From Flectobacillus major DSM 103 (lineage in GTDB: Bacteria > Bacteroidota > Bacteroidia > Cytophagales > Spirosomataceae), in NCBI RefSeq assembly GCF_000427405.1, contig NZ_KE386491.1, forward strand, positions 5,115,047-5,179,046: 64,000 nt of DNA, written 5' to 3'. The notes under the pieces were generated by a model. The model made no database searches. It was not told the DNA's origin and worked only from the letters and a program-made list of their open reading frames with translations. Shown one piece after another: positions 26,332 through 58,288 of this stretch (position 1 is the first letter of the stretch; each line of letters opens with the position of its first letter). The position numbers were made by a program, and so were the translations under genes.

Positions 26332-26569
26332 CTTTTAAGTAATATTAAAAGACACCTCCTATTGGTGTTTGCTGTGATTCATAAGGTAGTCAAGTGAACA
26401 TTGAAGAGGCTCATCAATTGCTCAAATAATAGAAAATTAGGAGCTATTCATGCAAAAGGCGTTCGAAATTAGTTTTTCGAACGCCTTTTTCGTGTTAAAT
26501 AACACATCTTTAGCCGTAAAGCATATTCAAAAATAATCACCATTCACTAAATTTAAGATGACTCATGTT
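26332..26569 (+). repeat. Dispersed intergenic repeat, copy A
   Basis: One of four related segments in this window. Shared blocks in order: AAGTAATATTAAAAGA, CTCCTATTGGTGTTTG, GATTCATAAGG, ATTGAAGAGGCT, ATTGCTCAAATAATAGAAA, then a hairpin, then ACACATCTTTAGCCG, AAAGCAT and CAAAAATAATCAC. Its right end carries AGATGACTCATGTT (26556-26569), whose reverse complement is at the opposite end of copy C. It lies between the convergent small membrane protein and A-type carrier genes. It shows no conserved reading frame. Confidence 0.85.
26454..26489. terminator. Core hairpin of repeat copy A
   Basis: AAAAGGCGTTCGAAA pairs perfectly with TTTCGAACGCCTTTT around TTAGTT. Flanking A/T runs make it a good bidirectional terminator between the convergent genes. 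Confidence 0.85.
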
Positions 26570-26581
26570 ATAATCGAATTT

Positions 26582-26908
26582 TTATACGGCAAAACTCTCT
26601 CCACATCCACAAGTACGCGAAGCGTTAGGATTTTTGAATTGAAAACCTTTTCCATTAAGGCCATCCGAAAAGTCTAGCTCTGTACCAGCAAGGTAAAGAA
26701 TAGATTTTTTGTCGACCATGATTTTTACACCTTTATCTTCAAAAACCATATCGTTGGCTTGAGGAGTTGACGCAAAGTCAAGGTTATACATCAAGCCCGA
26801 ACAACCGCCACCTTCTACGGCTACACGTACATTGTATTCGTTCGATAAACCTTCTTTATCACGAAGTTCCTTAATTTTATTGGCTGCTATATCAGTTACT
26901 GTTACCAT
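26582..26908 (-). CDS. A-type iron-sulfur carrier (IscA/ErpA/SufA family)
   Basis: Receives Fe-S clusters from the scaffold and hands them to target proteins. The 108-residue protein has the three family cysteines: Cys36 (GGGCSGLMYNL) and Cys100/Cys102 (SRTCGCGESFAV). Which of the IscA, ErpA or SufA subgroups it belongs to cannot be decided here. It is about 8 kb from the suf cluster on the other strand and is monocistronic, with a TATTTTTG -7 box upstream. Confidence 0.93.
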   Translation of the reverse strand: MVTVTDIAANKIKELRDKEGLSNEYNVRVAVEGGGCSGLMYNLDFASTPQANDMVFEDKGVKIMVDKKSILYLAGTELDFSDGLNGKGFQFKNPNASRTCGCGESFAV

Positions 26909-26964
26909 GTTGCTTTGTCAATTTTGAGAAGAAAATGAAATAAAACTTTCTTGCTAGTGAACCA

Positions 26965-26972
26965 CAAAAATA
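26965..26972 (-). promoter_or_regulatory. -7 promoter box for A-type carrier gene
   Basis: TATTTTTG on the minus strand fits TAnnTTTG, 56 bp before the start codon. No clear TTG at -33. Confidence 0.4.
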
Positions 26973-27070
26973 CAAGAAAAGTTCATATAAATACTTATAC
27001 AAAACCACAACGAAACACAAAAGTAAATGAATATGGTGTATAAGAAAGGGTGAAGTATTTTTACAAAAGG

Positions 27071-27118
27071 GGTATTTATTCTGTTCTATAATATTGGATT
27101 CGGAGCAGAATAAATACC
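27071..27118 (-). terminator. Terminator after ctlX-like gene
   Basis: GGTATTTATTCTG pairs perfectly with CAGAATAAATACC around a 22-nt loop, 14 bp after the ctlX stop. On the minus strand it is followed by CCTTTTG. Confidence 0.7.
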
Positions 27119-27132
27119 TAATAAAACTTTTT

Positions 27133-28071
27133 CTAATTGATATATTTATTTGGTAAATGAACTTCGGCCATCATACAACGTGCCGAACCGCCTCCATTGC
27201 CTTCTATCATAGACAAGTTAAAATGGTGAATGCTACAATATTCGTTTAGGCTTTGTAGCTGTTTGGGCGTTAGCGATTGAAAAGCAGCGTCGGACATTAC
27301 AAGCATTTTTTCACCCTTTTCGCTTTTGATTTCTAGCATATTACCTGCAAACTGATTCATTTGTTCAATAGATATTTCGATAATCTGTTTACCACTGCTT
27401 TCTAGCGAGTTTCGTACCATTAATCTTTCATCCAAATCAGGAATAGCATCTAGGCAAATTACAGCAAACATATCGCCAATACACATCAGTACATTGGTAT
27501 GATACACCTGCTTGCCCGAAGCATCAACAGCCGTAAACTTAACGATTTCGTAATTCATTTGTACTGAAAACTCCTGCAAAACAGCCTCGTGTGTACGTGG
27601 CGAAAGGCAGGCATAGGCAATTTTGTGTTTTCTGTCCAATACCATCGAGCCAGTGCCTTCCAAAAATTGATTTTTATCTTCAAAACCCGACAAATCAATA
27701 CGGCGATTAATATAGAACGACTGCCCCAACAGCTCAATAATATCTTCACGGCGTTCTTGTCGACGGTTGTGAGCTTGCATAGGGTAGGTGATTACTGTAC
27801 CATTGTTATGAAACGAAATCCAGTTGTTCGGAAAAATCGAATCGGGAGTGTAGGGTTCTGTGGTATCTTCAACCACAATAACATTTACGCCAAACTTTTG
27901 TAATTGATCTACCATTTCATCAAACTCCGCAAGGGCTTGTTGTTGAGCCTGCTGCTGGGTTTGTTGTCCAAACAAAGCATTTTGAAATGCGTTTGATTCG
28001 GCTGTTTGTTCATTAAACCCAAAACGAACAGGGCGAATCATTAAGATATTGGAGGTTGTTTGTGAACGCAT
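27133..28071 (-). CDS. ctlX: Citrulline hydrolase-type amidinotransferase-fold protein (CtlX)
   Basis: Member of the guanidino-group modifying superfamily, closest by pattern to CtlX/citrulline ureidase, which splits citrulline to ornithine, CO2 and ammonia. Visible features: MIRPVRFGFNEQTAESN, DSIFPNNWISFH (substrate-binding Asp/Asn), FLEGTGSMVLDR, HTNVLMCIGD (catalytic His) and the catalytic Cys299 in GGGSARCMMAEVHLP. The 312-residue length fits. It lies 58 bp after the arginine deiminase gene on the same strand, so the two probably form an operon turning arginine into ornithine. The citrulline specificity rests on family pattern and context. Confidence 0.82.
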   Translation of the reverse strand: MRSQTTSNILMIRPVRFGFNEQTAESNAFQNALFGQQTQQQAQQQALAEFDEMVDQLQKFGVNVIVVEDTTEPYTPDSIFPNNWISFHNNGTVITYPMQAHNRRQERREDIIELLGQSFYINRRIDLSGFEDKNQFLEGTGSMVLDRKHKIAYACLSPRTHEAVLQEFSVQMNYEIVKFTAVDASGKQVYHTNVLMCIGDMFAVICLDAIPDLDERLMVRNSLESSGKQIIEISIEQMNQFAGNMLEIKSEKGEKMLVMSDAAFQSLTPKQLQSLNEYCSIHHFNLSMIEGNGGGSARCMMAEVHLPNKYIN

Positions 28072-28129
28072 AATCTAAAGAAAGTTAGCAATGAAGTTAT
28101 GATATTTTTTAAACAGGAAAATAGGTTTT

Positions 28130-29563
28130 CTAAAAATCCTCTCTCAAAATTGGCATCGACATACAGTGCGAGCCTCCCCGAGCCCTCGATAATTCGGCCG
28201 AAGGCAATAATATAAAGGTATTTTGGAGCATAACAGGCGAGCTTTTTCCACTTTCAAAATCTTGTAGTAAATCGGCTACTTTGATGGCTTCAAATCCAAT
28301 TTGTTTGAAAGCGTCCAATGTTTTGTCATTGCGGTCATAACCTATTACTACCCCTTCTTTTAGTGCCAATAAATTACAAGAATCAGTCCATTGTTCTCGG
28401 TCGCCATAAGGAAACTCGTTGTTGCCCGAATATACAAACTGTACTTCGAGTGGCATACAACCCAGGTCATTGACAGAAATTTCTGTTAGCAAGTCTTCAA
28501 GATATTCAATGGTTCTAGGTTCTTTAGACTCTCGTCTAAACTGAATAATTTTTAACTCTTCAGATGCTTTAGGCTTGATAAGGCCAGCCTTAATAAATAC
28601 TTCATCTTCTTGTTTGGCTCTTTTGCCCAACGAACCCAACAATACCCAAATGTTTCGTTTTACCTGCGTAAAAACGGTATCGATGTGCATGTAGTCTCGC
28701 TTTTTAGGAATTTTGACAAGCGTAACTTTGTCGACAAGCTTTTTCTCGAAAAGGATTTTAATTACTTGTTTGGCTGCAAACACTGTAGTTCGTTCCGAAA
28801 TACCTATCAATAAGTGGTTGGGGGCTACCATCATTACATCGCCACCTTCAAGTGTTGCTTGCGAGTTAGATTGTTGCTCGTCGGGCATCAAAAAATGATG
28901 CTCATTATCTGGAATTTCAATGATTTTGTTTTTAAGTTCACTAAATATTTCGTGGTGAAAAAATACATACTGCATCAACAAGGCTTCTCTAGTACGAGCT
29001 AGTTTAGCTGGTTTGTTCAATAAAAGGTGGTCGTTGATAGTAATACCAATATCTCGGGTAAAAATAAAATTCGGAATAGGAGCAAAGAGCATTTGTTTGT
29101 CGGGTGTCATTCCCGAAATAAGTGTTTTGGCCAATTCAGACGATGGATATGCCAATAGCTCAGACTGTACCGTAAAAGAACAATGCTCGACAGCACACAC
29201 GGCTGCCACGAGTCGGGTACGATTAATGGTATTTTCGAGTACTTCGGCCAAAAGGCGTTGTACTTCTATCACTTTATCGGATTTGAAATAGTCAGGACTT
29301 TCGGGTTTGAAAAAATCTCTGCTTTCATCTTGGTCTATTTCGGCCAATCTACCTTTGATTTTATCAGGGTCAAGGAAGTATAACAACGTTTTCAGATAAT
29401 AATCATATTCATGCTTACGCATCGTATCAAGGTGTATAATATCTTCAAAAAGCCAATCTTGAGCTTTTGATGGGACTACTTTCCCCAAACCACTGTCGGG
29501 GCTATGAATTAGTAACCTTTTGAGTGTACCTACTTCCGAAGAGACTTTGATTGTATTTTCCAT
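28130..29563 (-). CDS. Arginine deiminase family protein
   Basis: Hydrolyses arginine to citrulline and ammonia in the cytoplasm. Key blocks: the N-terminal SSEVGTLKRLLIHSPDSGL, FTRDIGI, LEGGDVMMVAPNHLLIGISERT, MHIDTVFTQV (catalytic His and Asp), SRARGGSHCMSMPI with catalytic Cys467. At 477 residues it is longer than classical ArcA (about 410); the extra length is spread between the N-terminus and the FTRD block. No carbamate kinase, ornithine carbamoyltransferase or arginine/ornithine antiporter is nearby, so this is not the ATP-yielding ADI pathway. The downstream CtlX-type enzyme suggests the citrulline is hydrolysed instead. Confidence 0.88.
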   Translation of the reverse strand: MENTIKVSSEVGTLKRLLIHSPDSGLGKVVPSKAQDWLFEDIIHLDTMRKHEYDYYLKTLLYFLDPDKIKGRLAEIDQDESRDFFKPESPDYFKSDKVIEVQRLLAEVLENTINRTRLVAAVCAVEHCSFTVQSELLAYPSSELAKTLISGMTPDKQMLFAPIPNFIFTRDIGITINDHLLLNKPAKLARTREALLMQYVFFHHEIFSELKNKIIEIPDNEHHFLMPDEQQSNSQATLEGGDVMMVAPNHLLIGISERTTVFAAKQVIKILFEKKLVDKVTLVKIPKKRDYMHIDTVFTQVKRNIWVLLGSLGKRAKQEDEVFIKAGLIKPKASEELKIIQFRRESKEPRTIEYLEDLLTEISVNDLGCMPLEVQFVYSGNNEFPYGDREQWTDSCNLLALKEGVVIGYDRNDKTLDAFKQIGFEAIKVADLLQDFESGKSSPVMLQNTFILLPSAELSRARGGSHCMSMPILREDF

Positions 29564-30406
29564 GATTGATGATTGTCTTTGAAGCTTATTGAGATATTTT
29601 CCTAAAAAATAGTAAAAAAGTGATTTTTCGCAATAAACAATTTTTTTAGAACAATGTCAAGTTGAAACAAGAAAGTACCATGGCAATATACCCTCTATAG
29701 TAGTTTCAGAGGGGATTTAGATACGTAACTTTTTGGAGAAAATAAGAAGAACTAATAATCTCTTTACAAAATAACCCAAAAGCTATTTTAGCTACTTAAA
29801 AGGGAAAGTTTGCTATTTTGTAAGAAAAATATCGTAGAAGGTGCAATATTACACAGTAGATAAAATATTTATAAATTATGATGAATAATTTATTTAATCG
29901 TAGAAAAAATGAAAAATAAGGTCATTTTGAGGTAAAAAAAAATAAGCAAAAGCAAACTAAAAAATAATTCTTTTCGTAAGTTTATTATCTATATATAGGC
30001 ACGGGAAGAAAGTTTCTCAAATAGATAGTTTCAATGGTAACTTGTCATATGCTCATGACGCATTCGTATCAATGCAATAATTAGGCGGTTTAAATGCAAA
30101 AAATATAGAATGTTTTTTTTATTCCTTACTACTTTTTGAGACTTTCTTTCCTTTTCCTTTCTTACAGATCCTCCCCAACTTCATTGCTGTTCATTCGTAT
30201 TTTTACTCATATTTCTTTTTTCAAAGTGCTTCGGTTCTAGCTATCGCTGATTGGCTATGCCATAGGATATTTTGCAGGAAAGAACGAGCAAAATATAGTA
30301 TATATCCTATCTCTTTAAGATTTTATACCAGCTTCTGTATTATTATGCAAAAAAAAACAGGAGCCCATTTGAGCCCCTGTTTTCATTGCTTCTTCGCAAA
30401 TGTATA
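29564..30406. other. Long AT-rich intergenic region
   Basis: 843 bp without a convincing gene. The arginine deiminase gene starts at its left end (minus strand) and the surface-protein gene ends at its right end (minus strand). A small hairpin (CCCTCT/AGAGGG near 29691-29715) and the surface-protein terminator (30353-30384) are the only structures seen. No tRNA-like, RNase P-like or SRP-like core motifs were found by eye. Confidence 0.6.
30353..30384 (-). terminator. Terminator after surface-protein gene
   Basis: AACAGG and CCTGTT arms extended by GAGCCC/GGGCTC-like pairing around ATTTGA; on the minus strand the stem is followed by a run of at least eight T. It lies 23 bp after the stop of the 1189-residue protein. 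Confidence 0.8.
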
Positions 30407-33400
30407 TTATCTCACTTTTGTTACTGTGATTGGTACACAAATGTTTGGCAAACAGCTTGAACAAGCTGAAGGAGGAGTAATTGTCACACCTGTCAATGAA
30501 CAACCATTTGCATCTGTTATCGTTACTGTTTTATTACCGCCTGTGATTAAGAACGGACCGTAAGGGCCAGAAGCTGTACCGTAAGCAACGTTAGTAGCTG
30601 TAGCACCACCCGACACAGAGTAAGTAGTAGAGCCGCCCGAAGGATTCAATGTGAATGTAAATGTGTCATCGGCAGGGTTGCTTGGAGTACCATTATCGTT
30701 ACAGATTGATACAATACCTGTCGCTGTAAGCATTGGAGTAGCTTTTACAGTTACATTAAATACGTCTGTTACACTACAACCAGCACCTGAGGTTTTCACA
30801 ACACTATAGCTTCTGCTCAAAGTAGGAGATACGCTAAGTGAAGCTGTTGTTTCGCCAGTTTCCCACAAATAAGAAGTACCGCCTGTTGCAGTTAATACTA
30901 CTGAAGAACCCGCACAAACTTCGGCTGTAGATGTAGCACCTGCTGGTGTTGCATTTACTGTTACTGATACTGTTGCAGTACTTGTACAACCATTGGTACC
31001 TGTTACGGTTACTGTATAAACACCTTGGTTAGCCGAGGTAGCTGTTGCAGTGATAGAAGGACTTGCCTCAGTTGACGTGAAGCTACTAGGACCACTCCAT
31101 GCGTAAGTTTCGCCTGCTGTAGTACCCGATAAAGCTAATGCTAATGGCGTACCCGAACAAACTGCATACGTAGGGCCTGCCGTGATTGTTACACTTGGAG
31201 CAGGGTTTACAGTTACTGAAGTAGTACCTGTACTTACACAACCTTTAGCATCTGTTACCGATACTGTGTAGTTGCCACTCATTGCTGTTGTAGCTGAAGT
31301 AGATACCGTTGGATTAGCAGATGTTGAGTTAAAACCATTTGGCCCTGTCCATGCAAAAGAAACACCCGCAGGGTTACTTGTTACATTGAGTGTTAATGGA
31401 GAACCAGAACAGTTCAATGGGCCAGTTGTATTAGTAATAGTCAAAGCTGGATTAGGGTTAACAATTACGTTGACAGTAGCTGTTGCACTACAATTGTTGC
31501 CACTCAAACCTGTTACTGTATAAACACCAGGGTGTGTAACTAGTGAAGCAAGAGATGTTACTGTAGGGTTAGCTACTGTAGAAGTAAAGCCACCTGGACC
31601 AGACCACGAATAAGTACTAGCTCCTGATGCGGTAAATGTAATAGGGCTATTTTCACAAACTTCAACCGATGTTGGTGTAATAGCTACCAATGGAGCAGCG
31701 TAGATACCAACACTTGTCGTGGCTGTTGCAATACATCCATTTACATCTGTTAATGTTACAGTATATGTACCTACAATAGCGTTGGTTGCTGATGCTGATA
31801 CTCTAGGACTTTGTAAAGTTGATGCAAAGCTATTTGGACCACTCCAAGAGTAAGATGCTCCTGCAGGAGTACTAGCTACTGTAAGGTCTACAGTGCTACC
31901 AAGACATACTTGCAATGGAGCTGTAGCTGTTAATACAGGAAGTACGTTAACATTTACGTTGACTGTAGCAGTTGCAGTACAACCCAAAGATGAAGTACCT
32001 GTAATGGTATAAACACCGTTGTGAGTAGCGGCGTTAGCCAATGCCGATACAGTTGGGTTTTGTACTGTAGAGGTAAATCCACCAGGGCCCGACCATGCAA
32101 ATGTAGCGGTGTTCGAGGCTGTTACTGCCAAAGCAAGTGGCGTGTCTTTACAAACATTAACTGTAGGGGTTGCAATGGTCAATACAGGAACTGGAATGAT
32201 TTCAACAATTACGGGACAACATGTACCTGTCGGACAGCTACCTACTGTACCTTGAGTTGTATATGAGCCTGCCTCAGTAACTGTCAATGTAGCATTTGTT
32301 GCACCAGGAATAGCAGTTCCATTTTTGTACCACTGAATACTTGTAAAGCCAGCTGCTGCTGTTAATGTAAGTGATTCTCCTTGACATAATTTTACAGGAA
32401 CACTCACACAAGTGGTAGCAGTAATCGTACTACTCAAGTTTGTTCCATTACCTGCCGTAATGGCCGCAGTATTATAAAGTACACCGTCCTGAATAGCTTT
32501 TGCTGTAATTTTTAAATCAAGACTGTTGGTTGTACCACCGATAGCACTACCAATATTCCAAATACCAGTAGTTTCGTCATAGGAAGTACCTGTAGGAACT
32601 ACTTTGCTTACAAACGTGAAGCCTGCTGGCAATAAATCTGTAATTTTCAAGCCTGTTACATTTGGCGTACCAGCAAGACGAGCTGCTGTAATTGTGAAAA
32701 CAACATTTTCGTTCAGTTGTACAGTACTTTTATCTGAAGTTTTTGATACCGAAACATTGTATTGGTCAGTATCACAACCGTTAGGATAACCGTCGCCATC
32801 TGTATCTAATAAGTCGTTCCCTCCATCACATTTATCTAAACAGTCAGCTACGCCGTCATTATCAGTATCAGTTTTTGAATAAGCGTAATAAACTCTTAAA
32901 GAACCCAACACAGATACTAAACCACTCGTTGAGATAATTCTGATTTTGTTGAATGGTTTGGTTGTTTTAAAGCCTAATTCATACGCTCCAGAACCACCCA
33001 ATAAACCTAATTTAATAAGGCTGCTATTGGCTGCAATACTTTCTTGTTTGGTTGTACCATTATAAGTCTCAATGGTAATTGCATTCAATAAATCTAAGTT
33101 TAACAAAGCGTTTCCATCAGCAACAACAAAACCGGCCTCAGTACCAGCAGTTTTTGTTGCTGATGAAGCTACCTCTATGTAGCTATTACAAGTGCCTAAT
33201 GCTATGGCTAATGTAGTTGCGATTGTTGCATAATCAGTAGTACTAGCGTTTACAACATTATTTTCATTAGCAACACCCGATATACAGACAGCTAAACCTG
33301 TGTTATATTTACCTTCAGACACACTATACGTTGTGCCTCCAGTGCCACCGCTTACCCATTTGTCAGCACAGTCAACATTAGTAGTTGCAGCAGGGCCTTC

Positions 33401-33976: not shown

Positions 33977-34977
33977 GAATTGATTTTTATAATACCTACT
34001 TACAGCCCAATAGAAGATCTTTCAAAGTTGTCAACTAACTTCGGGAATGATGTTTCTACTTAGGTTTTTTTTATAGTAAATGATAACTGTAAATCAAATG
34101 CTCGTATACAAACAAAACAATAATTATGCCATGCAGTATAGCATAGAGAGATAAAAAGAGTTTTTTTGAATGAGTGTGGATTTTTGAGGATAAGATTAGG
34201 TAAAAAAATGATAAGGATGAAAATGTGTCTACAACAAACTTTTCATCATAAATCATGCCAAATTTGTTGCTTTTAAGTAAAAATAGAAAAGATGTTTGTT
34301 TTTTTACTTAAAAGTAACATAAGGCTCTTTTTAGGGGCTAGAAGCCGTTTTTTTGAGGCAATACCCTTTGGCTTATGCCAAAAATAGAAGCCATACAAGA
34401 TGATTGATAGTTTTATGAAACCTTACGTACGTATACAAGTCTGTATCTTTCAAACGGAGTGTCTACACGTATCATATTATGTAATGTTTAAGTATTGAAT
34501 ATTTATTCTATAGAGTAAAAATGCTATTACGAGTCAAACAATCTAAACCTTTGCCAAGCGATAAATTAAAGCTTGACGTATAAATTTCCATTAAAATTTT
34601 ATAAATAATACAAACTTTTTTCAATTGTTTAGAGTTGTTCTAAATAAAGTATAGTATTTGAAAAATCCAATAAGTAATTTTGTGCCATAATTTATAGGAT
34701 GTGACTATCTTGTTGATTTTAAATTAACTAAAAGTCATTTCTTGTATACATATCGCAATTGAAGTATTAGGAATAGGTTGATTGAATAGTACGCCTCAAT
34801 AAAGTTTACTATTGTTCAAGTCCTTTTATCCTTTGAATAGAGAAACACAATCCCAAACAAGGGTAGGTTTTGGCTGTTTACCTACTTCCCAATTTTTAGG
34901 TTGCGTATGATACCTCGTTACAAATCGTAAGGAGTTTGATAATTCTTAAATTAAGGTCAAATATCACTACCAAGACA
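33977..34977. other. 1-kb intergenic region between surface-protein gene and sufC
   Basis: A 1-kb divergent, very AT-rich gap without a supported gene; it must hold the promoters of both flanking genes. A TAATTTTG box at 34675-34682 (with TTTG at 34657-34660, a short 14-bp spacer) is a candidate start of suf transcription. A short palindrome TACGTACGTA lies near 34425. No remnant of sufB is seen. Confidence 0.55.
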
Positions 34978-44657: not shown

Positions 44658-44866
44658 AACATAAGTTAGTCCAAATTTTAGGTAATATAAAAGAACCCTC
44701 TTATTTGTGTTGGTTGGAATTTGTGAGGTAAACCATCGTACCCTATTGGGAAAAGTACACCAATAGTAGGTATTTATTGACTTAATCAAAAAAGGCGAGA
44801 AGACTCATCTTTAGACATAATGCTTTGCATCTTTATTGCCAAAATACAGGTTTAATCACTTATTCA
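44658..44866 (+). repeat. Dispersed intergenic repeat, decayed copy D
   Basis: Left part (44658-44728) matches the left part of copy C: AACATAAGTTAGTCC, AAATTTTAGGTAATATAAAAGA, CTCTTATTTGTGTTGGTTGG. Right part (44802-44866) keeps GACTCATCTTTAG and a few later bases. The central GGCGTTCGAA hairpin is lost; only AAAAAAGGCG remains, and a different hairpin (CCTATTGG/CCAATAGTAGG, 44741-44770) lies between. It is in the convergent gap between the LacI regulator and metG. Confidence 0.6.
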
Positions 44867-44874
44867 TTCAATTG

Positions 44875-44910
44875 TTTAGTAGCTCAATAACTGCTTATTG
44901 AGCTACTAAA
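44875..44910 (-). terminator. Terminator after metG
   Basis: TTTAGTAGCTCAATAA pairs perfectly with TTATTGAGCTACTAAA (16 bp) around CTGC, 7 bp after the metG stop. No long T-tract. Confidence 0.75.
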
Positions 44911-49507: not shown

Positions 49508-49538
49508 TTGACATTGAAAAAGTAAAGCCCTATCTTTG
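49508..49538 (+). promoter_or_regulatory. rpsU promoter
   Basis: TTG (49508-49510), 20-bp spacer, TATCTTTG (49531-49538): a full Bacteroidota-type promoter, 40 bp before the rpsU start. It is among the best promoter matches in the window, as expected for a ribosomal protein gene. Confidence 0.75.
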
Positions 49539-49578
49539 CACCTCAATTCAAAGTTAAGACAATAAACAAACAAATAAT

Positions 49579-49773: not shown

Positions 49774-49845
49774 TCTCGATTGATTTCATTCATTATGTTA
49801 TCATTTAATCGTGAATTAAGCCGATAACCGTTCAGCATTCATAAA

Positions 49846-49891
49846 AAATTGACTATCTTAGAATCATGAATTCAGAGATAGTCAATTTTTT
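49846..49891 (+). terminator. rpsU terminator overlapping the xerC start codon
   Basis: AAATTGACTATCT pairs perfectly with AGATAGTCAATTT (stem at 49846-49858 and 49876-49888), followed by a run of T. The 17-nt loop contains the ATG (49866-49868) of the recombinase gene, and the right arm encodes its residues 4-8. It lies 72 bp after the rpsU stop. Confidence 0.85.
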
Positions 49892-50753
49892 TTTGCAGTA
49901 TATTCAGCACGAAAAACGCTGTAGCGACCACACCGTAACAGCTTATAGAAAGGATATGGCTCAGTTTGTCGAGTATTTGACCAAGACCTACGACTTTCAT
50001 CATCCTCAATTAGCAGACCACCAAATGATTCGCTCGTGGGTGGTTTCGCTCTCAGAGGCCAAGCTCGATAGCCGGAGTATTAATCGAAAAATAGCAACGC
50101 TTCGCAGTTTTTTTAAGTTTTTACAACAAAAAAAAATTATCGACCAAGACCCCATGCGAAAGGTATTGGCTATGAAAACTACCAAAAATATTCCCACCTT
50201 TGTACGGGAGGCAGAGCTAGATAATTTACTCGACGATGTAGAATTTCCAGAAAGTTTTGAGGGAGTGCGTGATAAGCTTATTTTGGAGCTGTTGTATGGT
50301 ACAGGTATGCGTTTGTCGGAATTGATTGACCTTGAGGTTCGGAATATAGATTTTTATGGACAAACCGTAAAAGTGTTAGGAAAAAGGAACAAAGAAAGGA
50401 TTATTCCTATTAATCAATCGCTGGCTCATCAGATAGAACTATATATTCAATGCCGTAATCAGGAAGGCTTAGAACATCAATATTTGATTGTTAGTGAAAA
50501 AGGAAATCAGGCATATCCAGTTATGATTCAGCGGATTGTAAAAAAATACCTTAGCTTAGTAACGTCTCTTACTAAAAAATCTCCTCACGTTTTGAGGCAT
50601 TCTTACGCTACTCATTTGCTAAATAATGGGGCCGATTTAACAGCTATTAAAGACCTAATGGGGCATACATCGCTGTCGGCAACGCAGGTATATACCCATA
50701 ATTCTATGGAAAAAATCAGAAAGATTTACGAACAAGCCCATCCAAAAGCCTAA
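49866..50753 (+). CDS. xerC: XerC/D-like tyrosine recombinase
   Basis: Site-specific recombinase of 295 residues, likely of the chromosome dimer-resolution type. Residues 1-90 form the SAM-like core-binding domain (FLQYIQHEKRCSDHTVTAYRKDMAQF). The catalytic domain holds Arg149 (GTGMRLSEL), His241 and Arg244 (HVLRHSYATHLL), His267 (MGHTSLSATQ) and Tyr276 (VYTHNS). Complete and of standard length, with no phage neighbours, so host-type rather than an integrase. Its start codon lies in the loop of the rpsU terminator. The XerC/XerD distinction cannot be made by eye. Copy B of the repeat follows. Confidence 0.92.
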   Translation: MNSEIVNFFLQYIQHEKRCSDHTVTAYRKDMAQFVEYLTKTYDFHHPQLADHQMIRSWVVSLSEAKLDSRSINRKIATLRSFFKFLQQKKIIDQDPMRKVLAMKTTKNIPTFVREAELDNLLDDVEFPESFEGVRDKLILELLYGTGMRLSELIDLEVRNIDFYGQTVKVLGKRNKERIIPINQSLAHQIELYIQCRNQEGLEHQYLIVSEKGNQAYPVMIQRIVKKYLSLVTSLTKKSPHVLRHSYATHLLNNGADLTAIKDLMGHTSLSATQVYTHNSMEKIRKIYEQAHPKA

Positions 50754-50774
50754 CAAATCCTGCATAGATAGAGG

Positions 50775-51002
50775 CTATTAAAGATGAGTTATTCTGTTGA
50801 GATTCATAAGGTAATCAAGAGAACATTGAAGAGGCTTATCAATTGCTCAAATAATAGAAAATTAGGGGTTATTCATGCAAAAGGCGTTTGGAAAACTAAT
50901 TCCGAACGCCTTTTGCATGTCAGCATGACATATCTTTAGCTGCGAAGCATTACATCCCTGTGAAAAGTATCTTCAAAAATAATCACTCATTCTCTAAATT
51001 TC
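50775..51002 (+). repeat. Dispersed intergenic repeat, copy B
   Basis: Near-identical to copy A over GATTCATAAGGTA, AACATTGAAGAGGCT, ATCAATTGCTCAAATAATAG, AAAATTAGG and the hairpin, and again over ATCTTTAGC, GAAGCATTAC and TTCAAAAATAATCAC. The left block (AAGATGAGTTATTCTG) has drifted from the other copies and no AGATGACTCATGTT end is seen. It lies in the convergent gap between the recombinase and the MoxR-type ATPase genes. Confidence 0.85.
50875..50918. terminator. Core hairpin of repeat copy B
   Basis: Nineteen-base arms starting ATGCAAAAGGCGTT and ending CGAACGCCTTTTGCAT, with one G-T pair, around AACTAA. Same design as in copies A and C but with two base changes that keep or nearly keep the pairing, consistent with selection on the stem. 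Confidence 0.85.
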
Positions 51003-51054
51003 TTCCTATTTGAGGGTGGATTCTATACAAGCTGCATAGACAGCCATTTAGTAA

Positions 51055-52575
51055 CTATTCTTCGTCAAACTTGAATTTATCTAAATCAAATAGCGAGTCG
51101 GTCAAGTCTTTGAATTGTAAGCCTTGGTCGAGGGTTTTCTTTGAAATCATCGAAAACTCCGATAAGCCATGCAATACAAATTCCATCATAAAAAGTTTTT
51201 CTCGTCCTTCAAATGTTGGGTATATCTTTTCGATTAAGTCGTCGAGGCCATCGATAGCACGCAAGCGAGAAGAATAATCGGTATCAGAGCTATCGTTGAA
51301 AATATCAATAATATTGCCATCCATAAACCAATCAATTACGGGCTTGAATGGGTTTTTTCCAGCTTTATCTTTCGCAACTTTTTTGATTTTTTCGGGGTCA
51401 GGAAAATAGTTTAAAAACTGAGTACGAATAGCCTTTCCGATAAGGTTTTGAGCCACAATAACAGGCCCTTCAATTTCGCCTTCGTACACCAATTCGACTT
51501 TGCCACATACCGCAGGAATTACTCCTACCAAATCAGCAACACGGATATAGGTTTTTTCTTCACCATTCAGTAAAGCACGTCTTTCGGCAGCCGAAATCAA
51601 ATTTTCATAAGCCGAAATAGTCATACGAGCCGATACTCCCGATTTGGCATCTACATATTCCGATTGGCGAGCCTCAAAAGCAATTTGTTCAATCAAGTCC
51701 TCAATTAAGGCATTGGTAGTTACCAAATCGTGTTGTTCAGGCTTGATATTGGCCTCCTGCAAAGTAATACGCTTACCGATTGCCAATGTTTTGGGGTAGT
51801 GCGTTACAATTTGCGAGTCGATACGGTCTTTGAGCGGAGTTACAATAGACCCCCGATTGGTGTAATCTTCAGGATTGGCTGTAAAAACAAATTGAATATC
51901 TAAAGGCAAGCGTAGCTTAAACCCACGAATTTGAATATCACCTTCCTGCAAGATATTGAATAGCGACACCTGAATTCTGGCCTGTAAATCAGGAAGCTCG
52001 TTGATTACAAAAATACCTCTGTGCGAACGAGGAATTAAGCCAAAATGCACAACTCGTTCATCAGAATAGGGGAGTTTGAGGGTAGCTGCCTTGATAGGGT
52101 CGGCATCGCCAATCAAATCGGCAACAGATACATCGGGCGTTGCTAGCTTTTCGGTATAACGCTCGGAACGATGCCACCAAACAATAGGCGTTTGGTCGCC
52201 TTGTTCGGCAATGGTGTCTTTTGCAAAACGAGAAAGTGGCTCAAGGGGGTCGTCGTTAAGTTCAGAACCCCGAACAACAGGAACGTATTCGTCGAGCAAA
52301 GTAACCATCAAGCGGGCAATTCTGGTTTTGGCTTGTCCACGTAAACCCAATAAATTGATATGATGCTGTGACAAAATAGCTCGCTCAATATCGGGAATGA
52401 CGGTGTCTTCATAGCCCCAAATTCCCTCAAAAACATTTTCTTTATTTTTGATTTTAGTAATCAAATTGTCTCTAAGTTCTTGTTTGATAGACTTAGCTTG
52501 GTATCCAGCCGCTTTTAATGCACCAAGAGTTGTAATAGACAGAATTTCTTCTGTAGAAAGATTTTTGTATGACAT
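51055..52575 (-). CDS. MoxR/Mg-chelatase-like AAA+ ATPase
   Basis: A 506-residue AAA+ ATPase of the magnesium-chelatase ChlI/MoxR type. Features: Walker A GLRGQAKTRIA, a long insert with IVWWHRSERYTEKLATPDVSVADLIG, the helix-2 insert block GLIPRSHRGIFVINELPDLQARIQVSLFNILQEGDIQIRGF (Walker B FVINELPDL), sensor 1 FVFTANPEDYTNRG, and arginine finger region LKDRIDSQI. Despite the resemblance to ChlI, no bacteriochlorophyll or cobalamin genes are near. The upstream neighbour on the same strand is a VWA-domain protein; such pairs act as chaperones that insert metals or remodel protein complexes. The target is unknown. Confidence 0.85.
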   Translation of the reverse strand: MSYKNLSTEEILSITTLGALKAAGYQAKSIKQELRDNLITKIKNKENVFEGIWGYEDTVIPDIERAILSQHHINLLGLRGQAKTRIARLMVTLLDEYVPVVRGSELNDDPLEPLSRFAKDTIAEQGDQTPIVWWHRSERYTEKLATPDVSVADLIGDADPIKAATLKLPYSDERVVHFGLIPRSHRGIFVINELPDLQARIQVSLFNILQEGDIQIRGFKLRLPLDIQFVFTANPEDYTNRGSIVTPLKDRIDSQIVTHYPKTLAIGKRITLQEANIKPEQHDLVTTNALIEDLIEQIAFEARQSEYVDAKSGVSARMTISAYENLISAAERRALLNGEEKTYIRVADLVGVIPAVCGKVELVYEGEIEGPVIVAQNLIGKAIRTQFLNYFPDPEKIKKVAKDKAGKNPFKPVIDWFMDGNIIDIFNDSSDTDYSSRLRAIDGLDDLIEKIYPTFEGREKLFMMEFVLHGLSEFSMISKKTLDQGLQFKDLTDSLFDLDKFKFDEE

Positions 52576-52912
52576 TTATTTTTTGCTTAAAATATGTAAC
52601 AAACTTTTTGAGGCCTATTACCAGATGAAGGTACATGGTAAGTAATAGCAAACGCTGATGAAACAATACAACGTTGTTATATACAAACATTAATAATCAT
52701 TTCCTAAGCACAATTACTTACGCATCTCCCTGAAATATGACCTTTGACAATATGATTTCAGCCGTTCACATACATTTTAGAATACACAAAAAAAACTATA
52801 CTGTATATTTGACCTATTCATTAACTGTATTAACCTCGATAGCTTAAAATTCTTATCTGTTTAGCCTCCTCAAACCTGCAAATTATATCCCTTCTATTAC
52901 AGAAGGGATTTT
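52576..52912. other. Gap between VWA and ATPase genes
   Basis: 337 bp without a supported gene. A strong hairpin at 52887-52909 (ATCCCTTCT/AGAAGGGAT, loop ATTAC) lies just after the VWA stop. On the plus strand it is followed by T5, on the minus strand by ATAATTTG, so it may only partly separate the two genes. The rest would hold the ATPase promoter. Confidence 0.55.
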
Positions 52913-52914
52913 TT
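52887..52914. terminator. Hairpin after VWA gene
   Basis: A 9-bp perfect stem with a 5-nt loop; the T-tract is on the plus strand, where no upstream plus-strand gene exists. As a terminator of the minus-strand VWA gene it lacks a T-tract and overlaps its last codon by 2 bp. Confidence 0.5.
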
Positions 52915-54031
52915 ATCTTACATCTTTTTTCCGATTACGCTGATAGTCTTCAAAAATAAAATCACCAAGCCCTTTTAGCGAAGAATAGTAAGCTCGGCCG
53001 TTATTAATTTTAGTAAACTCCTGCACAAACTCTTTGAGGTACTCGTCACGGGCAATCATAAAAGTGGTAACAGGTATTTTGAGCCTTCGGCACTGAGCCG
53101 CCAGAGTGAGAGTTTTGTTGAGGATTTTTTTGTCGAGGCCAAAGCTATTTTTATAATATCGAATACCCTCTTTGAGGCAAGTAGGTTTACCGTCGGTAAT
53201 CATAAAAATTTGTTTATTTTTATTTTTACGTCTTCTTAACAAATCCATAGCCAATTCTAGCCCTGCCACAGTATTGGTATGAAATGGCCCCACCTCCAAA
53301 TAAGGCAAATCCTTGACCTGAATCTGCCAAGCGTCGTTGCCAAAAACAATTACATCGAGGGTATCTTTGGGGTATTTGGTCATAATCAATTCCGACAAAG
53401 CCATAGCTACTTTTTTGGCAGGAGTAATACGGTCTTCGCCATATAGAATCATCGAATGCGAAATATCAATCATTAAAACCGTAGAGGTTTGAGCTTTATA
53501 TTCCTTATCCATAATTTCCAAATCATTTTCGGTTAGCATAAAATTCTCAAAACCATTATTGATTTGGGCATTTCTGATAGATTCGGTCATGGCAATTTGT
53601 TCAAGTGAATCGCCAAACTGAAATTCACGGCGGTCGGTATTCATTTCGTCGCCAGTACCTTGGTAGGGTGTTCGGTGGTTGCCCGAATTACCAGTTTTTT
53701 TGAGTTTGCCAAAAATTTCCTCCAACGACTGTTTCCGAATACTCTGCTCGCCCTTGGCAGTAAGAATTTCGGCTTGTTGGCCATCTTCATTTTTTTCTTC
53801 TCGAATATAGCCTTTGGCCTTGAGGTCGTCTATAAAATCGGCAATACCATACGAATCATCCGTAAGGTTGTATTGCTGGTCTAATTGAGTAAGCCACGAC
53901 AACGCCTCCGACACATTGCCTGCTGTCATCGTTACCAATTGATTAAAAATATCTAATAATTGGTCGAACTTGGCTTTTTGTCCCTGGTCATTTTCTTGAG
54001 GGATAAATTCAGAAAAGCGGTATCCTAGCAT
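52913..54031 (-). CDS. von Willebrand factor A domain protein
   Basis: A 372-residue cytoplasmic protein. Residues about 1-165 are helical and charged. The C-terminal VWA domain (about 180-372) has the MIDAS metal-site pattern VLMIDISHSMILYGEDRITPAKKVAMAL (DxSxS as DISHS), a Thr in GPFHTNTVAGLELAM and an Asp in IFMITDGKPTC. It lies 337 bp upstream of the MoxR-type ATPase gene on the same strand. AAA+/VWA pairs (Mg chelatase I/D, CoxD/CoxE, RavA/ViaA) work as ATPase plus metal-dependent adaptor, so a joint function is likely; which complex they act on is unknown. Confidence 0.87.
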   Translation of the reverse strand: MLGYRFSEFIPQENDQGQKAKFDQLLDIFNQLVTMTAGNVSEALSWLTQLDQQYNLTDDSYGIADFIDDLKAKGYIREEKNEDGQQAEILTAKGEQSIRKQSLEEIFGKLKKTGNSGNHRTPYQGTGDEMNTDRREFQFGDSLEQIAMTESIRNAQINNGFENFMLTENDLEIMDKEYKAQTSTVLMIDISHSMILYGEDRITPAKKVAMALSELIMTKYPKDTLDVIVFGNDAWQIQVKDLPYLEVGPFHTNTVAGLELAMDLLRRRKNKNKQIFMITDGKPTCLKEGIRYYKNSFGLDKKILNKTLTLAAQCRRLKIPVTTFMIARDEYLKEFVQEFTKINNGRAYYSSLKGLGDFIFEDYQRNRKKDVR

Positions 54032-54636
54032 AGTGAATAAGGGGTTATGTGCAATACCTGAGCTATAAGTAATTGAGTCAATCAGGAAGTGTGTGTATTA
54101 GTCATTAACCAATGCCTACCAAGGTACAAGGCTATAGTAAGGTATTGAGGTTTTATATAAGTAGCCTTTGGATACTTTGCTAATACTTTGTGCCTAAATC
54201 CATTATATTTTATTTTACTCATGTACTTACAGCATTATGCAGGCTTTTTGTTTTTAAATCCTAAAAAAGGCAATATATTGTTGAAGAACCAAGCCTTTTG
54301 AGCGTTAATTCAATAATAGACTAACAAAAATAATAGGCTTCGGGTTTCCAGAATTTCACTCCATAAATATCCAATAACCATAATATTTTGTTTTGCATAG
54401 CCACTTTGTCATTTATTTATACCGTTATTTGAATTTTTGACAGGAAAAATGTTCTATTTAGGTCAAAATTTAACAAAAGATTATTGTATCAAAAGGGATA
54501 ACAATCCATGAAGTATTACCAGCCTTTGGCTATATTTGTGATTCCAACTAAACAATCAAACTGCTGTTGTAAAGCAGACAGGAGCATTTAAAGAGGACAT
54601 CTATATCTCAAAAATGGCTTCTACAATATCTAAGAT
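54032..54636. other. Divergent region between VWA gene and thrA
   Basis: 605 bp without a larger gene. It holds a TATATTTG box (54531-54538), a small hairpin CTGCT/AGCAG (54563-54579) and a nine-codon ORF that overlaps the thrA start. No rho-independent terminator that could serve as an attenuator was found. Confidence 0.55.
54531..54538 (+). promoter_or_regulatory. -7 promoter box for thrA
   Basis: TATATTTG is a full match to TAnnTTTG, 98 bp before thrA, leaving a leader of about 90 nt. No clear -33 TTG at the usual spacing. Confidence 0.4.
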
Positions 54637-54640
54637 ATGA
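54614..54640 (+). CDS. Possible leader mini-ORF overlapping thrA start
   Basis: ATG, seven sense codons (Ala-Ser-Thr-Ile-Ser-Lys-Ile) and TGA; the stop overlaps the thrA ATG (ATGA). Upstream AAAGAGGA could be a weak ribosome-binding site. It would couple translation to thrA and contains one Thr and two Ile codons, the end products of the pathway. It may be chance. Confidence 0.3.
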   Translation: MASTISKI

Positions 54641-57093
54641 AAGTATTAAAATTCGGAGGAACGTCTTGTGGAACGGTTGAAAGTATTCAATCGGTTCTAG
54701 GCATCATCAAGGGCAACCTTGAAAAAGGAGAAAAATCAGCCGTAGTATTCTCGGCAATGGGCGGCGTTACCAACCAGCTTATTGAAACAGGAAAACGTGC
54801 CTCGGTAGGCGATACCAGTTATTTCGACTTGGTAAAAGCTATTGAAGACCGTCATTTTGGTGTAGTTCGTGCACTTATCGACGTAAAAGCACAGTCCAAG
54901 GTATTTGCTAATATCCGAACGATTATCAACGAGTTAGAAGACCTTCTCAAAGGGGTTTCGCTAATTCGTGAGATTTCTCCTCGTACCGCCGACCTTATTG
55001 TAAGTTTTGGCGAACGCTTATCTACTACTTTGATTTATGAAATTCTTCATGCTCAGGGTGTCGACTGCCAGTTTTTAGATGCTCGTAAGGTGATTCGTAC
55101 CAACGATACCTTTGGTATGGCAGAAGTAGATTTTGCGGTTACGAATCAGCAAATCCAAACGCATTTTTCTAAGTCCAAATCATTGCAATTGATTACGGGC
55201 TTTATTGGCTCGACCGATAAAGGCGAAACTACAACCCTTGGCCGTGGTGGTTCTGATTATACAGGGTCTATTTTTGGAGCAGCGTTGAATGCCACCGAAA
55301 TAGAAATCTGGACAGACGTAGACGGCATGATGACCGCCGACCCAAGAAAGGTGAAAAATGCCTTTACTATTCCGACAATCACTTATTCGGAGGCAATGGA
55401 ACTTACGCACTTTGGGGCTAAAGTCATTTACCCGCCATCGTTGCAGCCTGCTTTTGCCAAAAATATCCCTATTCGGGTACTCAATACCTTTAACCCTAGC
55501 TTTGTCGGGACAGTTGTAAGTCGCGAAGCCGAACCTAGCGAATACATTATTACTGGTATTAGTTCGATAGACAACCTTGCCTTGGTCAATCTTCAAGGGT
55601 CGGGTATGATCGGTGTTGCGGGGGTGTCGGGTAAGTTATTTACAATTTTGGCCAAAAACAAAATATCGGTTGTACTGATTTCGCAAGCTTCTTCAGAACA
55701 CTCTATTTGCTTTGCCATCGACCCTCAGTTTTCAGACCAAGTTCGTCAGATTTTAGAAACAGAATTTGCCAACGAAATAGCCATAGGCGATATTGAAGGA
55801 ATCGAAATTCAGGAAAATCTTTCCGTAATTGCTGTTGTTGGCGAAGGAATGCGTCGCCATACAGGGGTGAGCGGTAAGCTATTCTCGGTTTTGGGTAAAA
55901 ATGGTATCAATATCGTGGCTACAGCACAAGGGTCGTCCGAACTGAACATTTCGGTTGTTATCGAGAAAAAGGATATTTCAAAAGCACTCAATGTGATTCA
56001 TGATACTTTCTTCTTCTCGCAGGTCAAAACCTTAAATTTATTTTTGGTAGGTACTGGACTAATAGGAAAAACTCTCTTAAATCAACTTACAGGGCAAGCC
56101 AATTATTTGTCCAAATATAAAGCCCTGAAAGTCAATCTTGTGGGTGTAATGAATTCTCGTAAGATGTTGATTAATGCCGAAGGGATTTCAATGGACTCTT
56201 GGCAAGAAGCTGTTGAAAGTACAGGCAAATCAGCCGAGTTGTGGGCATTTGTAGAAGAAGCCAAACGACTCAACTTACCTAATTCGGTATTTGCTGATTG
56301 TACCGCCGACAAAAATATTCATAATTATTATTTAGGGCTTTTTGAGGCCAATATTTCGGTGGTAACTCCCAACAAAGTAGCCAATTCGGGTAGGTACGAA
56401 GACTACGCTTTGTTGCACAGAACAGCCCTGAAAAAAGGTGTTAAGTTTTTGTACGAAACCAATGTAGGGGCAGGATTACCTGTGATCAATACGCTGCAAG
56501 GGTTGATTTCGTCGGGCGACCGTTTTGAAAAAATCGAAGGTGTACTTTCAGGAACGTTGTCGTATATTTTCAACAACTTCAAAAAAGGTGTCAAATTTGC
56601 CGATATTGTTCGTGAAGCTAAAGCCAAAGGCTATACTGAGCCCGACCCACGTGAAGATTTGAGCGGGATGGATGTGGCTAGAAAAATTTTGATATTAGGA
56701 CGAGAAATTGGTCTTAAAATCGAACCAGAAGATGTTACAATACAAAAACTTCTTCCCGAAAACTGTGAAAAAGCACCTACTGTCGACGACTTTTTCCACG
56801 AACTAGAGGTATCGAACGAATATTTCGAGAAAATGGTAGACGAAGCCGAAGCCAAAGGCGAGGTACTTCGCTTTATTGCTACTTTAGAAAACAACGCCAT
56901 TACGATTGGTGTACGGAGTATCGGTAAAACGCATCCATTTTATATGATGGACGGAGCCGACAACGTAATTTCGTTTACCACCAAACGCTACCACGATCGC
57001 CCCTTGGTAATCAAAGGGCCAGGAGCTGGGGCCGAAGTAACAGCCTCGGGGGTATTTGCCGATATTGTAGCTATCGGAGCGTATTTGGCATAA
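54637..57093 (+). CDS. thrA: Bifunctional aspartate kinase / homoserine dehydrogenase
   Basis: Catalyses the first and third steps of the aspartate pathway to threonine and methionine. Residues 1-290 are aspartokinase (MKVLKFGGTSCGTVESI, FGERLS, TTLGRGGSDYTGSI, WTDVDGMMTADPR), followed by two ACT regulatory domains (about 310-460: MIGVAGVSGKLFTILAKNKISV and HTGVSGKLFSVLGKNGINI). Residues about 465-818 are homoserine dehydrogenase (NLFLVGTGLIGKTLLNQL, VTPNKVANSG, GVLSGTLSYIFNNF, DPREDLSGMDVARKILIL). Length 818 is standard for ThrA. Feedback by threonine through the ACT domains is expected for the family. thrB follows after 49 bp. Confidence 0.97.
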   Translation: MKVLKFGGTSCGTVESIQSVLGIIKGNLEKGEKSAVVFSAMGGVTNQLIETGKRASVGDTSYFDLVKAIEDRHFGVVRALIDVKAQSKVFANIRTIINELEDLLKGVSLIREISPRTADLIVSFGERLSTTLIYEILHAQGVDCQFLDARKVIRTNDTFGMAEVDFAVTNQQIQTHFSKSKSLQLITGFIGSTDKGETTTLGRGGSDYTGSIFGAALNATEIEIWTDVDGMMTADPRKVKNAFTIPTITYSEAMELTHFGAKVIYPPSLQPAFAKNIPIRVLNTFNPSFVGTVVSREAEPSEYIITGISSIDNLALVNLQGSGMIGVAGVSGKLFTILAKNKISVVLISQASSEHSICFAIDPQFSDQVRQILETEFANEIAIGDIEGIEIQENLSVIAVVGEGMRRHTGVSGKLFSVLGKNGINIVATAQGSSELNISVVIEKKDISKALNVIHDTFFFSQVKTLNLFLVGTGLIGKTLLNQLTGQANYLSKYKALKVNLVGVMNSRKMLINAEGISMDSWQEAVESTGKSAELWAFVEEAKRLNLPNSVFADCTADKNIHNYYLGLFEANISVVTPNKVANSGRYEDYALLHRTALKKGVKFLYETNVGAGLPVINTLQGLISSGDRFEKIEGVLSGTLSYIFNNFKKGVKFADIVREAKAKGYTEPDPREDLSGMDVARKILILGREIGLKIEPEDVTIQKLLPENCEKAPTVDDFFHELEVSNEYFEKMVDEAEAKGEVLRFIATLENNAITIGVRSIGKTHPFYMMDGADNVISFTTKRYHDRPLVIKGPGAGAEVTASGVFADIVAIGAYLA

Positions 57094-57142
57094 ATAAACC
57101 AGTGGTAATATTTCCACATAATTGCTGTTGACTTAACATACA

Positions 57143-58078
57143 ATGACAGATTCGATAAAAGTATTTGCCCCTGCAACAGTTGCTAATGTTGCCTGTGGTT
57201 TTGATATATTTGGTTTTGCAGTTGATAACCCTGGCGATGAGCTTATCCTTAAAAAGTCGACTAATAGGGGGGTCAAAATCAATAAAATAGAGGGCGACGA
57301 CGGGCGTTTGCCTTTGGATGCAAGCAAAAATACTGCAGGTATTGCAATTCTAAAGTTTTTGGAAGCCATAGGCGAGGAGGGACAAGGCTTTGAAATGGAC
57401 TTGAAAAAACTCATGCCATTGGGGTCGGGACTTGGCTCGTCGGCGGCTTCGTCGGTAGCAGGTGTTTTTGCTGCTAACGAACTTATGGGGCGACCTTTGG
57501 CTCAGAAAGACCTATTGCCTTTTGCTATGGAGGGCGAATTTATTGCTTGTGGGTCGGCTCATGCCGATAACGTTGGGCCTAGCCTTATGGGCGGGTTTGT
57601 TGTAATTAGGAGCTACGACCCTCTGGACATTATTCAGCTCAAAACTCCCAAAGAGTTATACGCTACAATTGTGCATCCGCATATCGAGGTGAATACCAAA
57701 GATGCCCGCAATATTTTGAAAAGAGAGATTTCTTTGAAAAATACTATCACTCAGATGGGAAACGTGGCTGGTTTGGTGGCAGGCTTGATGCTACCCGACT
57801 ATGATCTAATTTCTCGTTCGTTAGTAGATGTAATCATAGAGCCAATTCGTTCAATCTTAATTCCTCAGTTTGACGATGTTAAAAATGCAGCTTTAGAAAA
57901 CGGTGCTTTAGGATGCTCTATATCTGGTTCAGGGCCTTCGATGTTTGCTTTGTCGAAAGATTTATTTACCGCCAATCGTGTGGGTAAAGCCATGCAAGAT
58001 GGTTTTGCCAAAGTGGGTATTGGTTCTGAATGTTATGTGTCAGGTATCAATCAAGCAGGGCCTGTGGTATTAGGATAA
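57143..58078 (+). CDS. thrB: Homoserine kinase
   Basis: Phosphorylates homoserine with ATP, the step before threonine synthase. GHMP kinase fold of 311 residues: VFAPATVANVACGFDIFGFAVD, the ATP-binding glycine loop LMPLGSGLGSSAASSVAG, EGEFIACGSAHADNVGPSLMGG, and the C-terminal GCSISGSGPSMFAL. Complete. thrC is expected next but is not in the window; copy C of the repeat begins at the stop codon. Confidence 0.97.
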   Translation: MTDSIKVFAPATVANVACGFDIFGFAVDNPGDELILKKSTNRGVKINKIEGDDGRLPLDASKNTAGIAILKFLEAIGEEGQGFEMDLKKLMPLGSGLGSSAASSVAGVFAANELMGRPLAQKDLLPFAMEGEFIACGSAHADNVGPSLMGGFVVIRSYDPLDIIQLKTPKELYATIVHPHIEVNTKDARNILKREISLKNTITQMGNVAGLVAGLMLPDYDLISRSLVDVIIEPIRSILIPQFDDVKNAALENGALGCSISGSGPSMFALSKDLFTANRVGKAMQDGFAKVGIGSECYVSGINQAGPVVLG

Positions 58079-58288
58079 TGCTTTGCGGCCAAAGATGTGT
58101 CATACTAACATTTAACATGCAAAAGGCGTTCGAAATTAGTTTTTCGAACGCCTTTTGCATGAATAGCCCCTAATTTTCTATCATTTGAGCGATTGTTAAG
58201 CTCATTTGACAACCTCCCTTATGAATCCCAACAAACACAAATAGGAGAGCTCTTTTAATATTCCTTAAAATTCGAGATGACTCATGTT
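58079..58288 (-). repeat. Dispersed intergenic repeat, copy C (inverted)
   Basis: Same family as copies A and B but in opposite orientation: reading the minus strand gives AACATGAGTCATCT at the left end, then AATTTTAAGGAATATTAAAAGA, CTCCTATTTGTGTTTG, GGGATTCATAAGG, GAAAATTAGGGGCTATTC, the hairpin and ACACATCTTTGGCCG. Its right end is cut at the thrB stop codon. It lies between convergent thrB and the VanZ-like gene. A 12-codon ORF (58170-58205) inside is not conserved in A or B. Confidence 0.85.
58116..58161. terminator. Core hairpin of repeat copy C
   Basis: A perfect 20-bp stem beginning CATGCAAAAGGCGTTCGAAA, with its exact reverse complement after TTAGTT. It is the best-preserved version of the family hairpin and starts 37 bp after thrB. 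Confidence 0.9.

Follow-up and report, generated by a model that had tools for sequence, protein, structure and literature searches.

The dispersed repeat in this 64,000-nucleotide stretch of Flectobacillus major DSM 103 (the window) is a MITE, about 235-290 bp long, bounded by the inverted repeats AAACATGAGTCATCCC...GGGATGACTCATGTTT and without a transposase gene. Its copies sit just behind stop codons, mostly between convergent genes, and most carry a hairpin that resembles a terminator on both strands. An IS with the same type of ends, 1.45-1.49 kb long and with an IS4-like transposase, is present in sister species and shows the same placement. We consider it probable that the family is a MITE mobilised by an IS, and that its copies settle behind genes and there assume the role of bidirectional terminator.

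Copies in the window and the anatomy of the element

The first-pass annotation had proposed four related segments around a common hairpin. A profile built from 44 genome copies, including A, B and C, recovered all four, D among them even though it had been left out of the profile, and the window copies align through their flanks and not only at the hairpin. The features are as follows.

26328..26569, + strand: copy A (profile match E 1.6e-70), in a convergent junction with stop codons at 26324 (+) and 26582 (-)
26458..26485, + strand: hairpin core of copy A, GGCGTTCGAA-attagttt-TTCGAACGCC; fold -26.2/-21.7 kcal/mol (two strands), z -8.4/-6.1
26549..26569, + strand: 3' terminal inverted repeat of copy A, AAATTTAAGATGACTCATGTT, from the 44-copy alignment; the 5' repeat is gone
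44658..44735, + strand: decayed 5' part of copy D, a worn terminal repeat and left body (profile match E 5e-9)
44794..44873, + strand: decayed right body of copy D (profile match E 6e-4), hairpin core lost (none in the core search)
50760..51001, + strand: copy B (profile match E 6.7e-62), without either terminal repeat, between stop codons at 50753 (+) and 51055 (-)
50883..50910, + strand: hairpin core of copy B, GGCGTTTGGA-aaactaat-TCCGAACGCC; fold -32.7/-30.1 kcal/mol; loop inverted relative to A
58066..58289, - strand: copy C, inverted (profile match E 8.8e-65); facing stop codon at 58338
58125..58152, - strand: hairpin core of copy C, GGCGTTCGAA-aaactaat-TTCGAACGCC; fold -33.7/-32.4 kcal/mol
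58268..58289, - strand: 5' terminal inverted repeat of copy C, AAACATGAGTCATCTCGAATTT, from the sequence and the alignment

Counting both strands, the folding energies of the A, B and C hairpins range from -21.7 to -33.7 kcal/mol (z -6.1 to -11.1), and in each of the six folds none of 200 shuffles was equally good. The 3' end of copy C overlaps the last ~13 bp of the gene at 57143-58078 (gaps to neighbours -13/49). Rfam gave no match within the window at gathering score. Adjoining the core-less, worn copy D, positions 44876-44910 hold a different palindrome, TAGTAGCTCAATAACTGCTTATTGAGCTACTA.

Terminal inverted repeats were absent from the first-pass annotation. Copy A keeps the 3' repeat, C the 5' repeat and D a worn 5' repeat, and B has neither; these worn or lost ends may be why they were overlooked. 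The ends are sharp in the 44-copy alignment, with AAACATGAGTCATCCCRAATTT on one side and its reverse complement on the other, forming terminal repeats of ~20 bp. Between them follow a left body, the palindrome and a right body. The palindrome consists of the core NGCGNTCGAA, an 8-nt loop and TTCGANCGCN, with core arms of 10 bp that outer positions extend to ~19 bp each, and an A-tract flanks the hairpin on one side and a T-tract on the other.

Searching the F. major genome (G000; 6.22 Mb, 7 contigs) by BLAST with copy A gave 74 matches, and 40 of 154 candidates were scored. The terminal-repeat pattern, with up to 3 mismatches, occurred at 102 + 109 = 211 sites, compared with 0 + 1 for the reversed control. 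The profile matched 91 times in the 1.75 of 6.22 Mb covered; the loci were partly targeted and many were picked by likeness to copy A, so these counts are biased towards well-kept copies. Two further terminal-repeat pairs lack a profile match and stand outside the 91. Shorter elements, ~160-180 bp long, share these ends and have a related hairpin.

A strict core pattern was found 83, 79, 84 and 59 times in four Flectobacillus genomes (G000, G001, G002 and G003, respectively) and 30 times in a genome of another genus of the same family (G045); the remaining 94 genomes searched, the fourth congener G004 included, gave no match. Interiors differ between these groups, that of the G045 element among them, and the ends and hairpin persist. 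The suggestion that the family is mobile or formerly mobile and non-coding is supported by terminal inverted repeats that it has in common with an IS, and by near-identical copies in another genus.

Placement behind stop codons, and the matching IS

In the sampled parts of the F. major genome (60 even stretches of 20 kb, together 1.2 Mb, plus the window and targeted loci), the 91 profile matches comprised 62 between convergent genes, 26 between co-directional genes, none between divergent genes, two at the edge of a stretch and one overlapping a gene. Counted as distinct junctions, the numbers were 60, 26, 0, 2 and 1. The single overlapping copy runs into Ns, and the gene call that it overlaps has a negative score. 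The even sample alone held 20 copies (11 convergent, 8 co-directional, 0 divergent, 1 at an edge) among 129 convergent, 130 divergent and 661 co-directional junctions, whose share of intergenic bases was 9.6%, 26% and 64%, respectively. The convergent share of 11/19 is far above what these bases would give (p 2.4e-7).

The repeat had been described as confined to convergent junctions, which is true of 62 of the 88 classified copies but not of the 26 that are co-directional; the rule that holds is a position just behind a stop codon. Its absence from divergent gaps was borne out (0/88), and copies were not common in divergent or intragenic positions. The 26 co-directional copies lay a median of 22 bp past the upstream stop and 191.5 bp ahead of the next start, and 25 of them were nearer the stop than the start, compared with half of random points in co-directional gaps. 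This skew persisted outside a 100-bp promoter zone (p 2e-5 for G000 alone, n=21; p 7e-7 with G045 added, n=25) and outside a 150-bp zone (p 0.004, n=15, and p 3e-4, n=19, respectively). Because our home-made gene finder misses small genes, some co-directional calls may in fact be convergent.

The same pattern was seen in relatives. In 0.8 Mb of F. longus (G001), 18 cores comprised 12 convergent, 6 co-directional and no divergent placements, five paired end sets comprised 4 convergent and 1 co-directional, and 16 unpaired ends 11 and 5. In G045, 20 elements chosen for readable ends or cores gave 14 convergent and 6 co-directional placements, after one element (L319) was moved from divergent to co-directional on finding a missed 220-aa ORF 56 bp before the copy; L319 alone was re-examined in this way.

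As had been noted, the window's nine convergent junctions, defined from the ORF list and gene calls, divide into five of 41-79 bp and four of 257-301 bp, and each of the latter holds a copy. That all convergent junctions above 200 bp hold copies is a property of the window; genome-wide the claim failed, with copies in 8 of 28 such junctions in the 1.2-Mb even sample. Among 20 long element-free convergent junctions, 11 had other repeat matches (in the sampled DNA) and 3 had terminal-repeat-like matches; some of these junctions thus owe their length to other repeats or to worn relatives. The five short junctions were said to hold ordinary hairpins, and our hairpin finder detected one in two of the five.

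The MITE has a matching IS. F. longus carries two copies, of 1466 and 1467 bp, in which the same ends flank a transposase gene. The best match of this transposase was NCBIfam transpos_IS4_3 (50.9 bits, curated cut-off 160), and Pfam DDE_Tnp_1 scored 20.6 (cut-off 23); both scores are below the curated cut-offs, and we therefore call it only IS4-like. Of 99 genomes, 10 had relatives of the transposase at E <=1e-10; G003 alone gave 18 matches, many of which are fragments at the ends of contigs. The 15-bp end was exact on IS copies of G001, G003, G019, G050, G062 and G092, and carried one mismatch per end on the G027 copy. It was kept exactly where transposases were 42-44% identical (L154, L155 and L157), and with one mismatch per end at 41% identity (L156). 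The exact 15-bp end was present in 21 of 99 related genomes. One IS copy (L168 in G092, 232-2810) is split near 296 by ~1.1 kb of other DNA, which suggests a nested insertion.

At E <=1e-10, the transposase search found no match in F. major and none in G045. A 1469-bp pair of terminal repeats in G000 was considered as a resident IS and rejected, as host genes and another element lie between the ends. G045 holds near-identical MITE copies (L300-L319) with no matching transposase at that threshold; its IS may have fallen into gaps of the assembly, or the copies may use a different transposase.

The IS obeys the same placement. At 19 loci, 26 gene-facing sides comprised 22 stops and 4 starts; for gene edges within 200 bp there were 18 stops and 1 start (p 1.6e-6 against 42% expected), the expectation being taken from random intergenic points of G000 rather than from the genomes that hold the IS copies. 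These sides are few and not independent, and the gene finder behind the calls had been trained on G001 before it was applied to other genomes, calling nothing at L157; at L177 the stop codon lies at the very edge, so that the IS possibly interrupts a gene. The MITE hairpin core was absent from all five IS copies examined. Because the IS shares the placement without the MITE hairpin, transposon target choice or tolerance is the more likely cause of the placement than the MITE hairpin, and purifying selection could be the source of much of it. The three IS copies examined for other terminator-like hairpins all had them near their ends: L131 and L155 have them on both strands, L154 on one. The IS is therefore not a terminator-free control, and a terminator may still play a part in the placement.

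These observations bear on an explanation that we regard as a real possibility, if on the whole an improbable one: the MITE and IS insert at many AT-rich places, insertions into coding sequences and promoters are purged, and the hairpin is incidental. IS copies that share the placement without the MITE hairpin fit this explanation, as does the finding that the junction of copy B is filled by other repeats or hairpins in sister species and in Arcicella. Pneumococcal IS, BOX, RUP and SPRITE elements are likewise enriched in convergent gaps, which has been read as tolerance (PMC3049150). However, the co-directional copies lie closer to the stop codon than avoidance of promoter zones predicts. The hairpin, moreover, is kept in 54 of 61 G000 elements that were found by both ends alone, and it is common to another genus in which the interior differs.

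Under the reading that we prefer, the MITE would be moved by the IS of a sister species, or by a relative now lost from G000, and its copies would settle close behind stop codons and therefore mainly where two genes converge. There, as its structure and context suggest, the hairpin probably terminates the transcripts of the genes on either side. Template switching from arm to arm during replication would keep the palindrome near-perfect and flip its loop, with selection possibly helping. A broader version, which we put forward tentatively and think rather unlikely as a whole, is that an IS family spread across several Cytophagales families targets positions behind genes specifically and duplicates no target sequence on insertion. 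Its MITEs would then be a portable two-way gene ending, with boundary stop codons in the terminal repeats and a bidirectional terminator replacing the resident one, and host 3' ends would have been repeatedly rewritten by a transposon.

The hairpin as probable terminator and its flipping loop

Most convergent copies have the stable hairpin with a T-tract on both strands that is expected of an intrinsic bidirectional terminator. Among 61 convergent copies (one convergent match with a gap >300 bp was dropped), a hairpin with a T-rich tail was found on both strands in 77% and on either strand in 90%. On either strand, the corresponding values were 3% for the remaining flanks, 38% for 109 element-free convergent junctions and 6% for shuffles. 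The leftover junction around a copy has a median of 46 bp, compared with 97 bp for element-free junctions (p 1.6e-7), and none of nine element-free convergent junctions shorter than 30 bp had a terminator-like structure; such short flanks leave little room for a second terminator. By these sequence features, most junctions that contain a copy offer neither gene a candidate terminator other than the MITE hairpin.

The T-run directly after the core most often has a length of 4 (76/172 ends) and reaches at least 5 in 46/172, whereas at least five T within 8 nt after the core occur at 164/172 ends. A stock, stricter terminator scan made no call in the junction of copy B. With T-runs this short and an empty scan at B, the predicted efficiency of termination is uncertain.

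The core was present in 86 of the 91 profile matches, a figure that is inflated by the core being part of the profile itself. Its arms were paired in 840 of 860 cells (97.7%), compared with 90.6% in shuffles, with several paired variants, and outer-arm positions 3-9 covaried (z 4-9). Between copies, stem letters were 90% identical and bodies 80%.

The loops of the G000 cores occur in exact inverse orientations, in ratios of 24:23 and 9:8, which together account for 64 of 86 cores; the other 22 differ. On a tree of 58 bodies, loop orientation required at least 17 changes, and 17 or fewer were required in 14 among the 94 of 100 shuffles listed. The closest 11 body pairs in G000 shared loop orientation in 73% of cases and more distant pairs in about half. 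A weak signal of descent therefore remains in loop orientation, and flipping is not fully random. In G045, the orientations stood at 15 to 5, not 1:1, and bodies 98.6-99% identical carried opposite loops. Arm positions that mismatch in the unflipped copies are paired in two flipped copies there (L300 and L307).

Perfect stems with inverted loops have been ascribed to replication template switching in hairpins (PMC8794818). The near 1:1 loops and the flips between near-identical copies point to the same process here, judged from sequence patterns. As template switching can yield perfect stems without selection, compensatory changes are weaker as proof of selection and are not to be read as such outright. 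Selection for termination may act on the hairpin too; covariation alone is insufficient to show it.

This weakens the suggestion of the first-pass annotation that the repeat is a host terminator family, its hairpin selected as a terminator with the compensatory changes as proof, which we now find doubtful. The 97.7% pairing of the arms, the paired variants and the covariation of the outer arms are what it predicts, and in most junctions the hairpin is the only terminator-like structure. Yet loop orientations close to 1:1 in G000, and arms that match together with flips in near-identical G045 copies, are marks of template switching (PMC8794818); the T-runs are short; and the IS obeys the placement rule as well. 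The related proposal that copies are kept where a bidirectional terminator is useful is supported only in part: most junctions with a copy have no other terminator-like structure, but an IS without this hairpin shares the placement, and template switching can explain the compensatory changes.

No convincing target-site duplication was found in 83 sites, nor in 30 sites of G045 and IS copies; the best z in the scan, ~3.6, arose among hundreds of length and offset combinations and is not credible. As the IS copies lack it too, the whole IS family may insert without a target duplication. To the left of G045 and IS copies the flanking DNA is rich in A, and to the right in T. That the element splits pre-existing terminator hairpins, leaving their halves as flanks, is very improbable: a few sites have strikingly palindromic flanks (for example, L135 and L145) and flank positions 1-3 show slightly more complementarity (z 1.4-1.9), but true flank pairs did not exceed mismatched ones (z 0.55, 83 sites), and pairs across the joint gave z 0.2 for 20 G045 copies, -0.9 for 10 IS copies and 1.7 for the 83 older sites.

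Seven of the 91 G000 matches, at six junctions, could be placed on F. longus junctions in the 0.8 Mb compared, with no clean pair of a filled and an empty site. One of these junctions (row 84) has the hairpin core in both genomes. In F. longus (L001), the junction corresponding to 50754-51054 contains an GAGTGATT-type palindrome; L002 and L004 have other hairpins there, and the Arcicella-type loci L005, L008 and L010 an CATTGCGAG-type repeat. Three convergent junctions on contig C4 of F. longus (rows 13, 14 and 88) hold a palindromic repeat, GATTGAGTGAATGA...TCATTCACTCAATC, that resembles part of the MITE right body.

Relation to known repeats

Plague, in 2010, reportedly found intergenic transposable elements to be non-random. 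REP elements with a RAYT transposase are recognised by a GTAG or CGTC tag together with the RAYT gene. No earlier report of the Flectobacillus repeat family was found in the open-access literature searched.

The closest known system in role is SPRITE of pneumococcus, described as a dispersed terminator-like hairpin repeat near gene ends, in convergent gaps in 15 of 30 cases, with co-option as a terminator proposed (PMC3049150). The likeness is one of role, by description: both are dispersed, terminator-like hairpin repeats enriched between convergent genes. SPRITE is described as an 18-bp duplex with simple AAAA/TTTT ends, whereas the Flectobacillus MITE has terminal repeats of ~20 bp and a matching IS. 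Also unlike SPRITE as described, the MITE has no divergent copies (0/88) and carries its loop in both orientations.

In structure, the element resembles the MITEs RUP, Correia elements and MITECca01 of Cardinium, which are described as short, non-coding, mostly intergenic and numerous, with IS-like ends (PMC3049150, PMC9769881, PMC10969869). From these descriptions it differs in having no detected target-site duplication, in a shared hairpin that is terminator-like in both directions and in its strict placement behind genes. The word 'convergent' does not occur in a MITE review. REP, BIME and REPIN sequences are extragenic palindromes proposed to act in termination and mRNA stability; REPs measure 20-40 bp (PMC3733652), whereas the Flectobacillus element measures 235-290 bp and has IS-type terminal repeats. 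Template-switch hairpins have been described in RNA genes (PMC8794818), whereas here dozens of dispersed copies belonging to one bacterial repeat show the pattern.

The element is thus of a known kind, a MITE, in a variant with a built-in two-way terminator-like hairpin. As far as our searches go, the matching IS, the placement common to IS and MITE and the flipping loop are new. A dispersed terminator-like repeat is here tied to a recognisable IS, and placement behind genes is common to the IS, to old MITEs and to near-identical MITEs of another genus. This makes it testable whether transposons supply bacterial terminators and aim for gene ends. Dozens of copies whose loop orientations stand near 1:1 also provide a natural record of apparent template switching.
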